Source of the DNA: Couchioplanes caeruleus
GTDB taxonomy: Bacteria; Actinomycetota; Actinomycetes; Mycobacteriales; Micromonosporaceae
DNA length: 64,000 nucleotides
NCBI RefSeq assembly: GCF_023499255.1
Contig: NZ_CP092183.1
Span: forward strand, 7,064,501 to 7,128,500
Reading direction: 5' to 3'
Part shown: piece after piece, positions 33,998 to 41,805 of the stretch
Layout: each line of letters begins with the position of its first letter
Position numbering within the stretch: the stretch's first letter is position 1
Notes under the pieces: generated by a model
What the model saw: the letters and a program-made list of their open reading frames with translations, nothing else
Told to the model about the DNA's origin: nothing
The model's database searches: none
Position numbers and translations under genes: made by a program

Positions 33998-34142
33998 CCC
34001 CAGGTCACACGCGTCACAAACCTCGGCCGTTCGGTCCCGGCCCCCTCCTCCGGAGCGCCCGCTCTCCAGTCCGGACGGAACCCCGGGTGTGCCCCGGTTT
34101 GCCGTGGCAGGCGAACACTGACCGTAACTACCGTTGCTGCTT

Positions 34143-36731
34143 GTGCAGCAGACCTCGGTTACCGAAGCCGTACCGGAGAGCCTGGATCCCGGGCCCGAGG
34201 GGCCGGGCCGCGGCGGGTTCGTCGCCGTCCTGCGCGGGCACCTCGATCTCTTCCTGAACGCCGGCTCGCTGATGGCCACGACGGCGCTCACCTCGCTGTT
34301 CGGGTTCGCGTACTGGTGGCTGGCCGCCCGTACCGCGCCGGCGGAGGCGGTCGGCCAGGCCTCCGCCGCGGTGTCCGCGATGACGCTGATCGGCACGATC
34401 GGGATGTTCGGCATGGGCACCATGCTGATCTCGGACCTGCCGTCGCTGCGGGGCCGCAAGTGGGAGCTGATCTCAACCTGCCTGCTCGTCGCGGGCAGCG
34501 CGGCCACGGTCGGCGGCCTGATCTATGTGGGGCTCGCGCACTGGGCGGTGCCCGGCCTGCGGGAGGCGCTGGGCGGCACCGCCGCGACCGTGCTGCTGGT
34601 CTTCGGCATCGCGCTGAACGCGATGACGCTGGTGCTGGACGAGGCGCTGGTCGGGCTCCTGCAGGGTCCCCTGCAGCTCATGCGCAACGCCTGGTTCTCC
34701 GTCGTCAAGCTGGTGCTGCTCGGGGTGCTGGCGCTGCTGCCACTCACCCTGGACGGCGGCGTGCTGCTGCTGACGTGGGTGGCCGGCATGGTGCTGTCGG
34801 TCGCGGTCCTGGGCCGCACGCTGCGGCGCAAGAACATGGTCGATTCCGTACGCCCCAGAGCGTCGCTGCTGCGCGGGCGCGGCCGGGCCACGTTCGACCA
34901 CAACCTGCTGAACCTGGCGACGTACCTGCCGCGGGCGGCGCTGCCGCTGGTGGTGACCGCCGTGCTGTCGGCGGAGGCGAACGCGTCCTTCTACACCGCC
35001 TTCATGGTGCTGTCGTTCCTGGCGATGGTTCCCGGCAACGTGGCGCTGACGTTGTTCGCGGTGGCCAGCGGCGACCGGGCGGCGTTGCGCTCGAAGGTGC
35101 GGATGGGCCTGCTCATCTGCCTCGGCGGCGGGCTGCCCGTGTCCCTGGTGGTCGCCGTCGGCGCCGACCGGATCATGTCGCTGTTCGGCGCGAGCTACGC
35201 CGAGTCGGCCGGTGCCGCGCTCACCATCCTGGCGCTGACGTACGTGCCGTTCGTCTTCCACCATTTCTTCCTGGCGATTTCCCGCGTGCAGGGCACCGTC
35301 CGCGGCGCCGGCATCTTCGCCGTCTTCGCCGGGGCCGCCGAGCTGCTCGCGGCCTGGTACGGCGGCAGCCGCGGCGACCTCACCGAGCTGGTCACCTGGG
35401 TGGCCGTGGTGATGGCGCTGGAGACCGTGCTGGTCGCCCCGACCGTGCTGCGGGTGGTCTTCGCCCGCGCCGCCCCCGAAGGAGACGTCGTGTCCACCAC
35501 CAGCCTCACGCTGCACGAGCGGGCGTGGCTGCCGCTCGAGTACATCCGCACCGTCGGACCGCTGACCGGGGTGACCGCCGAGCGGCTGCGGGCCGCGCTG
35601 ATCGGCCTGCACGCCGCGGACCCGACGCACCGGGCGGTGTCACGCCTGGACCGCAGCGGGGCGCGCTGGCTGCACATGGACGCGGAGGCGTTCGCCGGGT
35701 ACGTCCGCGAGGCCGTGACCGACCTGGGCGACGGCCCGGTCGACTTCGACGCGATGACCCGGCAGTTGCAGGCGGAGCCGCGCGGTCACCACCCGGTACG
35801 CATCCTGGCCGGCGGCGGGTACGTGGCGATGAAGGTGGCGCACGCGTACGGCGACGCCGGCCCGGTCAACACGCTGCTGCGCGAGCTGGTCCGCGCGGCC
35901 GGCGAGGAGCGCGCCGCGGCGATCGCCCCCTCGCGGCGGCACCGGTGGGCGCTGCCGAAGGCGTGGTGGAAGCAGTTCGGCACCAAGCCGGCACGGTGGA
36001 AGCAGGGGCTGAGCTTCGCCCGGCCGCCGCACCCGGAGGAGTCGGAGCTGCGCCCGTGGACGGCGGATCTGACCGTCGAGACGGCCCGGTCGGCGGAGGT
36101 GCTGGGCCGGATGCGGGTGTGGCGCGACGAGCACGCCCCGGGCGTGACGACCTCGGCGATCACCTTCGCCGCGTTCTCGGTCGCGTTGCGCGATCTGGGG
36201 CTGGACCCGGACCTGAGCGGCGGGACGTTCCTCGCGGACGCGCGGCGCTACCTCGACAAGGGCGTCAGCATCGACAGCAACTTCTGCATGGGCCCGTACC
36301 TGAGGCCCGAGGATCTGACCGACCCCCGGTCGATCCACACCACGCTGAAGGCGGAGCTGGCGACCGGCCGGATCCTGACGATGATGCTGCTGCGCGAGGG
36401 CAAGATCCTCGTCGCCGGGGCGCCCGGGATGCCGGACCCGTACCCGGCGGAGGCGCCGGCCCGGCCGCGGCCCCGGCTGACCTTCAGCAACCAGGGCCGC
36501 CACGACGTGCTCGCGGACCTGCCGTGGGCCGGCGACGCGGCGGGCCGGGTGAACCAGAGCGTGCCGACGCTGAACGGCCCCGAGGGCATCACGCTGACCA
36601 CCTCGGAGATGGGCGGTGTGCTGCACCTCGAGGCCACGTTCCACTCCTCGACGTACGACCCGGCCGTGGTGGCCCGGGCGCTTCGGCTGGTCTGCGCCGA
36701 CCCGGCCGCGCTGATCATGGCCGCGCGGTAG
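34143..36731 (+). CDS. Flippase (MATE/Wzx-like) fused to condensation-type acyltransferase
   Basis: An 862-residue protein. Residues about 25-440 form 12 or so membrane helices with the layout of MATE/Wzx polysaccharide or lipid flippases. After a short linker, residues about 450-862 resemble the chloramphenicol acetyltransferase/NRPS-condensation superfamily: H567-x3-D571 (AHAYGDAG) replaces HHxxxDG, followed by typical helical and strand segments (TFSNQG, LHLEATFHSSTYDP). At the junction an in-frame GTG (35490) is preceded by GAAGGAG at ideal spacing, so the acyltransferase may also be made alone. Start GTG 34143 is possibly leaderless. Likely makes and exports an acylated lipid or glycan. 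Confidence 0.82.
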   Translation: MQQTSVTEAVPESLDPGPEGPGRGGFVAVLRGHLDLFLNAGSLMATTALTSLFGFAYWWLAARTAPAEAVGQASAAVSAMTLIGTIGMFGMGTMLISDLPSLRGRKWELISTCLLVAGSAATVGGLIYVGLAHWAVPGLREALGGTAATVLLVFGIALNAMTLVLDEALVGLLQGPLQLMRNAWFSVVKLVLLGVLALLPLTLDGGVLLLTWVAGMVLSVAVLGRTLRRKNMVDSVRPRASLLRGRGRATFDHNLLNLATYLPRAALPLVVTAVLSAEANASFYTAFMVLSFLAMVPGNVALTLFAVASGDRAALRSKVRMGLLICLGGGLPVSLVVAVGADRIMSLFGASYAESAGAALTILALTYVPFVFHHFFLAISRVQGTVRGAGIFAVFAGAAELLAAWYGGSRGDLTELVTWVAVVMALETVLVAPTVLRVVFARAAPEGDVVSTTSLTLHERAWLPLEYIRTVGPLTGVTAERLRAALIGLHAADPTHRAVSRLDRSGARWLHMDAEAFAGYVREAVTDLGDGPVDFDAMTRQLQAEPRGHHPVRILAGGGYVAMKVAHAYGDAGPVNTLLRELVRAAGEERAAAIAPSRRHRWALPKAWWKQFGTKPARWKQGLSFARPPHPEESELRPWTADLTVETARSAEVLGRMRVWRDEHAPGVTTSAITFAAFSVALRDLGLDPDLSGGTFLADARRYLDKGVSIDSNFCMGPYLRPEDLTDPRSIHTTLKAELATGRILTMMLLREGKILVAGAPGMPDPYPAEAPARPRPRLTFSNQGRHDVLADLPWAGDAAGRVNQSVPTLNGPEGITLTTSEMGGVLHLEATFHSSTYDPAVVARALRLVCADPAALIMAAR
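35478..35492 (+). promoter_or_regulatory. Internal Shine-Dalgarno and GTG at domain junction
   Basis: GAAGGAG (35478-35484) lies 5 nt before an in-frame GTG (35490) that opens VSTTSLTLHERAW, exactly where the membrane part ends and the acyltransferase begins. This fits a second translation start or the remains of a once separate gene. Confidence 0.55.
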
Positions 36732-38800: not shown

Positions 38801-39142
38801 ATGTCGCTCAGCGCGGCCCACACGGCGGCGTTCCGCCGCGAAGTGCCCCAGGAGGGCCGGGTCTGGTCGATCCGGGACGCCGGCGGCTTCCCCGCGCCCC
38901 GGGCCGGCGACGGCAGCCGGGCCATGCCCTTCTGGTCCAAGCCGTCGCGGGCACAGCGGGTGGTGAGCGGCATCGAGGCGTACCAGGGTTTCGAGGTGGT
39001 CGAGATCCCGCTGCCGGAGTGGCTCGGCAGCTGGCTGCCCGGCCTGGGCCACGACGGCGTCCAGGTCGGGGTCAACTGGGCCGGCGCCCGGGCGACGGGT
39101 TACGACGTGGACCCGGCCCGGGTCTCCGCCTGGTTCGACTGA
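38801..39142 (+). CDS. DUF2750-family protein
   Basis: A 113-residue DUF2750 protein (VWSIRDAGGFPAP, GDGSRAMPFWSKPSRAQRV, YQGFEVVEIPLPEWLGSWLPGL, VGVNWAGARATGYDV). Function of the family is unknown. GGAGGGGG lies upstream of ATG 38801. Its last 43 bp overlap the 3' end of the convergent penicillin-binding protein gene. Confidence 0.88.
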   Translation: MSLSAAHTAAFRREVPQEGRVWSIRDAGGFPAPRAGDGSRAMPFWSKPSRAQRVVSGIEAYQGFEVVEIPLPEWLGSWLPGLGHDGVQVGVNWAGARATGYDVDPARVSAWFD

Positions 39143-41805
39143 CTCGGCTCCGGACTACCCGACGGCGTCACCGACGGGCTGGGGCTGGGCGACATTGACG
39201 GCGAGGGCGAAGGCGACGCTGTCAGCGCCTTCGACGCCACCGTCCGCTCCGGCAGGTCGAAGGCCCAGCCCTCGCTCTTCAGCCTCGGGATGAGCTTGCG
39301 CAGCGCGTCGACCGTCTGCGCCCGGTCGCCGCCGCCGTCGTGGACCAGCACCACCGCACGCGGCGCGAGCTGCTGCTCGATGCGCTCCGCGATGACGTCC
39401 GCGCCGGGCAGCAGCCAGTCGTCCGGGTCCACGACCCAGCCCAGCGGCGTGTGCCCGGCCTTGACGCCCTCCTTCGCCGAGTGGCCCCACGAGCCGTACG
39501 GCGCCCGGAAGAACGGCACCGTCACGCCCGGCGCGGCGGCCGCGATCGCCGCGTCCGTCCGCTCGATGTCGTCGCGGGCCGCCGCCGCGGAGACGGCCCC
39601 GAGGTCGTCGTGCTTCCACGAGTGGTTGCACAGCTCGTGACCCTCGGCGACGACGCGCCGGACCAGCTCCGGGTACCGCTGCACCTCCTCGCCGACCATG
39701 CAGAAGGTGGCCTTGATGCCGTACCGCGCCAGCAGCTCCAGCACCTGCGGCGTGTACTCGGACGGGCCGTCGTCGAACGTGAGGGCCAGCCGCTTGCCCT
39801 GTCCCGCGGTACGGACGACGACCAGGTTCGGCGCCTGCTTCTGCTGCCGGCCCTGCTTCTCACCCTGCTTCTGCACCGGTTCCGACGCGTGGACCTTGCC
39901 GGCGTCGCCGACATCCGTACGCCCGACGTTGGCGGCCGCGGGCAGCGGCACCACCGGCGAGCCGGCGAGCGCGGTCCGGGTGAAGTCCCGCCACAGCCGG
40001 GCCGGGATCGTCCGGCCCTCGATCGCCCTGCCCTCGGCGTCCCGGATCGGGCCGGGGCGGGACTTGCCGATCCAGACGGCCGTGGCTAGGTCCGGGGTGT
40101 ACCCGGCCATCCAGGCGTCCTGGTTGTCCCGGGTGTCCGCCCACTGCTGGGTGCCGGTCTTACCCGCCGCCGGGCGGCCCGGCCGGGCGCCGTCGGCGCG
40201 CAGCGTCGCGCTGAGCACCGACGTGACGTCCGCTGCCGCCGCCGGGTCGAGGACCGTACGGGCCTTGCGCGAGGCCGTCCAGAGCCGCTTGCCGCCCGCG
40301 TCCGTGGCCGACTCCACGAAGTGCCGCTCGTGGCGTACCCCGCCCGCGGCGAACGTGGCATAGACGGTGGCCAGGTCGGCGGGGGTCACGGCGTACCGGC
40401 CGATGGCGATGTCGGGGCGCGTCTTGCCGGGGCGCGGATCACCCTTCGCGTCGACGAGGGAGGGGGCACCCGCGTAGCGCTCGGAGATGCCCAGCTCGTG
40501 CGCCGCGTCCCGGACCGCCGTCGCGCCGATCTGCTCGGTCACCGCGTAGAACGGCGTGTTCAGCGACTCCATCATGGACTTCTTCAGCGTGCAGTCCGGG
40601 CACTGCAGGTCCTTCTGGTTCCGCAACGGCACGCCCAGCCGGCCCGGGAAGATCCGCGGTGAGCTGCCGTCCCAGCGGGAGTTCACGCCGATCCCCCGGC
40701 GCAGGGCGGCGGCGAGCACGACCGGCTTGAACGTGGACGCGGCCGGATGGGCGGCGGAGGCGTCGTCGAAGAAGCCCCGCCCCTGCCGGCCGCCGTAGTA
40801 CGCGCGTACCCCTCCGGTCCTCGGGTCGACCGCCACCAGCGCCGTCCGCAGGCCCTTCGGCTGCCCGGCCAGATGCCGGTTCACCTGGGCGACGGCGGCC
40901 CGCTGGGCAGCCGCGTCCAGGGTCGTCACCACCGACAGGCCCTGGGTGTGCAGTGCCTGCGGGGTCACGCCGTGCGCCGACAGTTCCCGCTCCACGCGGT
41001 CGATGACCATGCCGTCCGGGCCCGGGTTCTTCGCCGACGCCGGCAGCACCTTCGGGTACGTGACCTCGCCGCTGAGCCACCCCAGGTCGCGTTGCGCGCG
41101 GACGACCCAGTTCCACCGCCGGCGCGCCGCCTCGGCGTTGTTCGCGGGGTCGTACCCGTACGGATCCTTGATGACGGCGGCGAGCACCGCGCCCTGCGCC
41201 GCGGTGAGCCGGTCCGGGGTCACCCCGAAGTACGCGTGCGCCGCGGCCGCGATGCCCTGCGCGCCCCGGCCGTAGTAAATGGTGTTCAGATACCGCTCGA
41301 GGACCTGGTTCTTGGTGTACTTGCGCTCCAACTGGATCGCGAGCGCCATCTCCTTCGCCTTGCGCTCGACCGACACGTCCTGGGTGAGGAACGCGTTGCG
41401 GGCGTACTGCTGGGTGATCGTGGAGGCGCCCTCGCGGCTGCCGCGGGCGTCGGCCACCACCGCGCGCAGCACGCCGCGGACGGAGACACCGCCGTGGTCG
41501 TAGAAGTCACGGTCCTCGGCGGCCAGCACGGCCGAGCGCACGGCCTCCGGCACCGCCGACAGCGGCACGTCGCTGTGGTCGACGGTGCCCACCCGGGCGA
41601 GGATCGTCCGCCCGTCGGCGAAGTACAGCGTCGACGCCTGTGGCTCGACGGGAGCCGCCGGCAACGGCACGGATTCCACGTACGCCTCGGCGACCGCCGC
41701 ACCGGTGCCGCAGTAGAACACGACGATCACGAGCAGCCGGGTGAGCATGCGGCGCCAGAACCGTCGCCGCCGGTGCCGCGCGCGGTCAGGGATATCGGTG
41801 GTCAC
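39100..41805 (-). CDS. Penicillin-binding protein fused to NodB deacetylase
   Basis: A 901-residue three-enzyme chain. One membrane helix (about 20-42); GT51 transglycosylase with Glu97 in EDRDFYDHGG; penicillin-binding transpeptidase with STFK (357-360), SLN (414-416) and KTGT (549-552); a charged linker; then a CE4 polysaccharide deacetylase with TFDDGP (676-681), HSWKH (728-732) and RAPYG (767-771), and a Ser/Pro tail. All catalytic motifs are intact. It could polymerise and crosslink peptidoglycan outside the cell and N-deacetylate it, giving lysozyme resistance. Start GTG 41805; a GTG at 41877 is less likely. Confidence 0.92.
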   Translation of the reverse strand: MTTDIPDRARHRRRRFWRRMLTRLLVIVVFYCGTGAAVAEAYVESVPLPAAPVEPQASTLYFADGRTILARVGTVDHSDVPLSAVPEAVRSAVLAAEDRDFYDHGGVSVRGVLRAVVADARGSREGASTITQQYARNAFLTQDVSVERKAKEMALAIQLERKYTKNQVLERYLNTIYYGRGAQGIAAAAHAYFGVTPDRLTAAQGAVLAAVIKDPYGYDPANNAEAARRRWNWVVRAQRDLGWLSGEVTYPKVLPASAKNPGPDGMVIDRVERELSAHGVTPQALHTQGLSVVTTLDAAAQRAAVAQVNRHLAGQPKGLRTALVAVDPRTGGVRAYYGGRQGRGFFDDASAAHPAASTFKPVVLAAALRRGIGVNSRWDGSSPRIFPGRLGVPLRNQKDLQCPDCTLKKSMMESLNTPFYAVTEQIGATAVRDAAHELGISERYAGAPSLVDAKGDPRPGKTRPDIAIGRYAVTPADLATVYATFAAGGVRHERHFVESATDAGGKRLWTASRKARTVLDPAAAADVTSVLSATLRADGARPGRPAAGKTGTQQWADTRDNQDAWMAGYTPDLATAVWIGKSRPGPIRDAEGRAIEGRTIPARLWRDFTRTALAGSPVVPLPAAANVGRTDVGDAGKVHASEPVQKQGEKQGRQQKQAPNLVVVRTAGQGKRLALTFDDGPSEYTPQVLELLARYGIKATFCMVGEEVQRYPELVRRVVAEGHELCNHSWKHDDLGAVSAAAARDDIERTDAAIAAAAPGVTVPFFRAPYGSWGHSAKEGVKAGHTPLGWVVDPDDWLLPGADVIAERIEQQLAPRAVVLVHDGGGDRAQTVDALRKLIPRLKSEGWAFDLPERTVASKALTASPSPSPSMSPSPSPSVTPSGSPEPSQSNQAETRAGSTS

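Follow-up and report, generated by a model that had tools for sequence, protein, structure and literature searches.

A Wzx-type flippase fused to a probable acyltransferase, with a conserved internal start at the seam, in Couchioplanes caeruleus and its relatives

Results

The fused gene and its two halves

The stretch of DNA analysed here (the window) comprises 64,000 nt of Couchioplanes caeruleus (assembly GCF_023499255.1, contig NZ_CP092183.1, positions 7,064,501-7,128,500, forward strand) and contains a gene that runs from a GTG at 34143 to a TAG at 36731 in a stop-free frame of 862 residues. An earlier note, made from the letters of this DNA alone, had described a 12-helix MATE/Wzx-like half and a CAT/condensation-like half with the motif H567-x3-D571, joined exactly where a GAAGGAG and an in-frame GTG are located. 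All of these elements are present in the gene and its predicted protein, and are arranged as follows.

34143..36731 (+), fusion gene, Wzx/MOP flippase plus probable CAT-fold acyltransferase, 862 aa; open frame, uninterrupted and full-length in 52 genomes
34124..34137 (+), promoter-like element GTAACTACCGTTGC, conserved, directly upstream of the first start; compared by eye, function putative
34143..35489 (+), N-terminal half, residues 1-449, 12-helix flippase, helices at about 25-440; both termini predicted cytosolic
35478..35484 (+), internal Shine-Dalgarno (SD) sequence GAAGGAG at the domain seam; seen in the sequence, position and rare GGA codon conserved
35490..35492 (+), in-frame internal start GTG, residue 450; ATG or GTG in 38/52 fusions
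35490..36728 (+), C-terminal half (C-half), whole CAT/condensation-fold domain, 413 aa; AlphaFold2 model, Foldseek and VIA matches
35841..35855 (+), catalytic-type motif H567-x3-D571 (H567-A-Y-G-D571); HxxxD in 51/52 fusions

In the AlphaFold2 model of the whole protein (predicted template modelling score, pTM, 0.61), long helices between residues 25 and 440, counted as 12 membrane helices, precede a distinct domain that opens with a strand at residue 449. The first half has the 12-helix MOP fold and matches the lipid III flippase WzxE best. When residues 450-862 were modelled alone, as the note had proposed, they gave a complete CAT/condensation fold (mean predicted local distance difference test score, pLDDT, 93.2; pTM 0.92), with which the Foldseek and VIA matches agree; the note's second refuting condition, a C-half of another fold, thus fails as well. 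Besides the fusions, HxxxD is present in 13 of the 14 further family members included in the tree set, and the C-half is most likely an acyltransferase. The database names of the fusion (among 120 of 199 matches listed) are of the type lipopolysaccharide biosynthesis protein, O-antigen/teichoic acid export membrane protein, membrane protein and hypothetical protein; the second half is mentioned in none of the names shown.

Distribution and age of the fusion

The full-length fusion was searched for in 200 genomes (labelled G below), and is uninterrupted in 52 of them, the window's own included: 51 belong to one genus and one (G094) to another. A second search, covering 354 genomes of the family, added no further fusion. 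Within the genus (67 genomes searched), 51 have the fusion, nine only the C-half (in two pieces in G032 and G046) and seven neither. A public genome collection yielded 37 loci, with Nucisporomicrobium flavum, Couchioplanes, Winogradskya, many Actinoplanes and Paractinoplanes, Mangrovihabitans endophyticus and Spirilliplanes yamanashiensis among the named relatives.

A tree of the C-half was built from 77 rows, and approximately unbiased (AU) tests were run on it with six long outgroup rows dropped. C-halves encoded alone (solos) are nested among the fusions, and a tree constraining the fusions to a clade of their own was rejected (AU p 0.0045). With 52 uninterrupted copies in two genera, and with a separate fusion clade rejected by the tree, the merger of the two halves is old. 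The suggestions of a recent merger of two genes, or of a sequencing error in the window genome alone, have only the textbook ribosome-binding site at the join in their favour; none of the 52 fusions carries a stop codon at the junction, which the note had named as the sign of such an error, and both can be regarded as refuted.

Eight of the 11 solos in the tree lie at the same place as the fusion, beside a CorA-like gene. Three of the solos (G066, G016 and G032) share their upstream region with the fusion; in that of G016 the opening codons, GTGACGGCAACCGA, are also those of the fusion and lead directly into the C-half, while G066 and G032 are without these codons. Since the solos nest in the fusions, a fusion-only clade is rejected, and upstream and N-terminal remnants are shared, the fusion is most likely the older state at the CorA-side locus, from which some species most likely derived their solo acyltransferases by losing the flippase, not the reverse. 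The number of such losses is unsure, because a tree with all solos in one clade was not rejected (AU p 0.108); parsimony on the tree counts three changes. The flippase half seems to have been lost in Actinoplanes missouriensis as well, where the public protein AMIS_10130 (P0185) is a solo that has no HxxxD. In G058 a flippase-bearing locus lies near 7.17 Mb, which may or may not correspond to the published imp cluster. Extra solo acyltransferases away from the usual place were noted in G004 (C33) and G037 (C9 and C40; L056, L059 and L060), with HxxxD intact in all three.

A glycan cluster as partner of the fusion

Close relatives of the flippase half (E <= 1e-60, 52-61% identity) were found in nine genomes of other genera. 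In all nine the flippase is a separate gene beside genes for a large membrane protein, a DUF1616-like protein and a GH26-like protein, and in eight (not G108) also beside glycosyltransferase family 2 (GT2) genes; a polysaccharide deacetylase is present in four of the nine fetched stretches, of which some stop short of the cluster's end (domain names were taken from L051). In eight of these genomes (not G224) the fetched stretch also holds a separate C-half relative, at most about 7 kb away from the flippase. The separate homologues that the note had suggested looking for in relatives thus do occur near each other; in G105 the C-half relative carries one stop. In G133, from another family, a single contig holds genes distantly related to those of the flippase, the C-half, the membrane protein and another cluster protein.

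The same cluster is present, away from the fusion, in all 11 fusion genomes examined (G000, G062, G053, G021, G036, G018, G017, G049, G022, G027 and G064). In G000 it lies at about 4.17-4.19 Mb and comprises GT2s, the large membrane protein, and the DUF1616-like, GH26-like and polysaccharide deacetylase genes, with no flippase or acyltransferase of the fusion's families found in it. Across the 11 genomes, GH26-like and deacetylase genes are present in 11, GT2 in 10 and the membrane protein in eight, and neither flippase nor C-half occurs in the 16-40 kb fetched around the cluster in any of them: fusion and cluster complement each other in gene content. G008 and G094 have the fusion and, in the cluster stretch, a separate acyltransferase, with no close flippase there; these deep-branching genomes look like intermediates as judged from gene content, the tree position of G008 being unsure (long branch).

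Within the genus, the GH26-like gene (E < 1e-80) was found in 50 of the 51 fusion genomes and in none of the 16 others, while the membrane protein (E < 1e-240) and the DUF1616-like protein occur in the same 33 of the 51 and in none of the 16. This co-occurrence and the gene neighbourhood in other genera tie the flippase to glycan-assembly genes.

The catalytic histidine is lost in five of the eight same-locus solos (Asn, Arg, Arg, Pro, deleted), one of which, in G032, is a broken gene, against one of the 52 fusions; it is kept in the other three and in three solos at other places. The exceptional fusion, that of G008, is also without the conserved Asn-Phe motif; the glycan cluster of this genome holds an intact separate HxxxD acyltransferase (L136 9656-10804, L041). 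The enzyme half thus seems to stay active alongside the flippase and the cluster; in their absence, or when another enzyme can take its place, it often appears to degenerate.

Two further observations concern the clusters themselves. In three genomes of other genera the cluster is flanked by a gene for a type III polyketide synthase, recognised in L051, and by the conserved gene that comes after it (L051 14023-15956, L052 14920-16667, L055 5979-7666); an unusual acyl or phenolic group might originate from this synthase. In G031 (L146 6806-14666) a second, distant acyltransferase relative (29%) has GT2 genes as neighbours, together with a further protein belonging to that type of cluster.

A conserved start codon at the seam

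In the window gene, five bases separate GAAGGAG from the internal GTG. All in-frame ATG and GTG codons after residue 30 were scanned in the 52 orthologous fusions, an anti-SD duplex of <= -8 kcal/mol being taken as strong. The aligned codon 450 is ATG in 27 fusions, GTG in 11, GTA in one and an alanine codon in 13; it is therefore a start codon in 38/52, with a strong duplex in 34, while the next best codon reaches 11/52. All 13 alanine codons fall in one 14-member clade, whose fourteenth member, G065, has a GTG after a run of G (duplex -9.6), at which initiation may or may not take place. Among the remaining 38 fusions, a start with an anti-SD duplex of <= -6 kcal/mol is found in 36, and of <= -8 in 34. 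G017, which has lost the codon, has an ATG three codons on at a working distance, and the two exceptions, G044 and G008, have a start codon without SD. In the same-locus solo genes, read by eye, the aligned codon is ATG or GTG in seven of eight. The metagenome entries P0122 and P0129 have the aligned internal start as their first codon; they may be either truly separate genes or choices of the gene caller.

The linker varies in length and sequence among the fusions. In the six codons before the start, however, GGA accounts for 30 of 35 glycine codons, against 108 of 2840 gene-wide, linker included; in one alignment column it accounts for 25 of 26, the maximum in 64 other well-filled glycine columns being 19%. 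The GGA of the window gene itself lies one codon beyond this column. The internal start is conserved beyond chance, and its product would be the whole C-terminal domain, because the domain begins at residue 449; a free acyltransferase is probably made from it in most species. Of the two proposals of the note, the use of the internal start for a second product is supported by genome evidence, and the recent merger fails.

The 14-member clade also lacks the cluster's large membrane protein in 14/14 cases. That the loss of the internal start is tied to that of the membrane protein is only a hint, because four other fusion genomes are also without it.

Upstream region and neighbouring genes

Elements resembling GTAACTACCGTTGC precede most fusions and most same-locus solo genes, as judged by eye; the element was aligned for two fusions and three solos, and was not seen before the G058 solo or the G094 fusion. 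By eye, no G-rich SD precedes the first start of the window fusion (34124-34143) or of its nearest relative, G012, whereas one precedes the first start of many other fusions, and the internal SD of the window fusion is strong. The full-length product of the window fusion may come from a near-leaderless message.

None of the ten window neighbours scanned is a glycan-assembly gene: they are of CorA, GrpB, NADAR, GNAT, AsnC, DUF2000, DUF2750, PBP and response-regulator types, and one has no Pfam match above cutoff. At 39103-41748 (-) a single protein combines PF00912 transglycosylase, PF00905 penicillin-binding transpeptidase and PF01522 polysaccharide deacetylase domains, i.e. a cell-wall synthase fused to a deacetylase.

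Discussion

The fusion is probably a bifunctional protein of envelope-glycan assembly, a flippase carrying an enzyme that decorates its own cargo. The C-half would be tethered to helix 12 on the cytosolic side and would most likely transfer an acyl group to an oligosaccharide or its lipid just before flipping; the cargo would be the product of the glycan cluster that lies at a distance in the genome, and in most species a free acyltransferase would probably be added as a second product. The note's idea that the fusion would couple acylation of a lipid or sugar to export is supported by genome evidence. What the computations show is how each half folds, how old the fusion is, its partnership with the cluster and their complementarity, and a conserved internal start; we infer the acyl transfer with its donor and substrate, its timing before flipping, the identity of the cargo and translation from the internal start. 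We give an even chance to the fuller proposal that one gene, by its conserved seam start, yields both a Wzx flippase with an onboard acyltransferase and the same enzyme free in the cytosol, a MOP-superfamily counterpart of MprF with control of stoichiometry.

Several observations weigh against this interpretation. Neither half reaches the cutoff of any Pfam profile (for the flippase half, PF01943 scores 17.0-17.4 bits against the 28.2 required), the fusion protein has no NCBIfam match, and a PDB sequence search gave no match for the C-half. The top structural match of the C-half is the dehydratase AzeD (8s6l), of the condensation family, with epimerisation and terminal condensation domains also among the best Foldseek rows. 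Its fold does not fix its reaction, because this best match is a dehydratase, and the lack of a family profile match also leaves room for a bifunctional fusion whose C-half performs another condensation-fold reaction (dehydration, epimerisation or cyclisation) or acts as a structural gatekeeper; we consider this rather improbable. As to the partnership with the cluster, G094 has an intact fusion together with a separate acyltransferase, the GH26-like gene is absent from the fusion genome G014, the membrane protein is missing in 18 of the 51 fusion genomes, and the counts of co-occurrence cannot be taken as independent events, the genomes being related. The fusion might instead be a generic exporter, e.g. 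of a small molecule that its acyltransferase modifies, with no link to glycans. However, the close flippase relatives lie in a glycan-type cluster in 9/9 genomes of other genera, with GT2 in 8/9, the cluster genes co-occur with the fusion across the genus, and the best match is a lipid III flippase, which makes a generic exporter very unlikely.

The internal start itself could be a relic of a two-gene ancestor or an accident of linker coding, with only the fusion being made. The linker encodes Glu-Gly, which by itself gives SD-like DNA, and synonymous shuffles of the linker match the duplex energy in 58% (median of 38 sequences), so that duplex energy alone is no proof of selection at the codon level. 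Furthermore, 13 of the 14 members of one clade are without the start, and G044 and G008 without the SD, and all have kept the fusion; in that clade, therefore, the free acyltransferase is not essential. Nevertheless, start and SD persist in 36/38 fusions despite the variable linker, G017 replaces its lost codon nearby, seven of the eight same-locus solos have a start at the aligned codon, and the use of GGA speaks for codon-level selection. A relic or an accident is, on balance, somewhat unlikely, and we favour an internal start that is used.

If the proposed function is true, sugar-lipid flipping and acylation can be one machine. The fusion would then offer a ready genetic test of acyl decoration as an export ticket for a Wzx flippase. 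The seam offers a clear example of internal initiation that is apparently under selection, for which the natural losses within one defined clade can serve as controls. A fusion of flippase and acyltransferase is not described in the titles and abstract openings of the literature searched, nor, in the same titles and openings, is a Wzx flippase that chemically modifies its own cargo.

The flippase half shares the MOP fold and the tie to glycan-assembly genes with Wzx flippases such as WzxE and WpsG and ImpC of A. missouriensis, a species for which Wzx/Wzy-type clusters, one with a GH26 gene, are reported for sporangium polysaccharides (PMC13390465, PMC12691653). Those proteins are described as flippases alone, while the fusion has a transferase domain and sits away from its cluster; the passages on the A. 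missouriensis clusters in these two papers describe no fused flippase, and AMIS_1013 was not found in the main text of PMC13390465. With PapA5 and other stand-alone acyltransferases of the CAT/condensation fold, the C-half shares the fold and HxxxD; these enzymes carry no fused transporter, and PapA5 is 14% identical over aligned residues. The mycobacterial PapA and MmpL proteins are separate, and MmpL is another type of exporter than that of the fusion. Their pathways are reported to link acyl-lipid synthesis and export (PMC4183827, PMC1238737), and resemble the fusion in that a CAT-fold acyltransferase is paired with a dedicated exporter. In its logic the fusion would resemble MprF, a bifunctional aminoacyl-phospholipid synthase and flippase with separable domains (PMC8131360, PMC11980842, PMC2774229): as summarised in these sources, one protein modifies a membrane lipid on the cytosolic side and moves lipid across the membrane, an architecture that the fusion would fit. 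The parts of the fusion are different, a MOP/Wzx flippase and a CAT-fold domain, with no MprF-type Pfam domain listed for it at E <= 1, and while the cargo of MprF is phosphatidylglycerol, that of the fusion is most likely a lipid-linked glycan.
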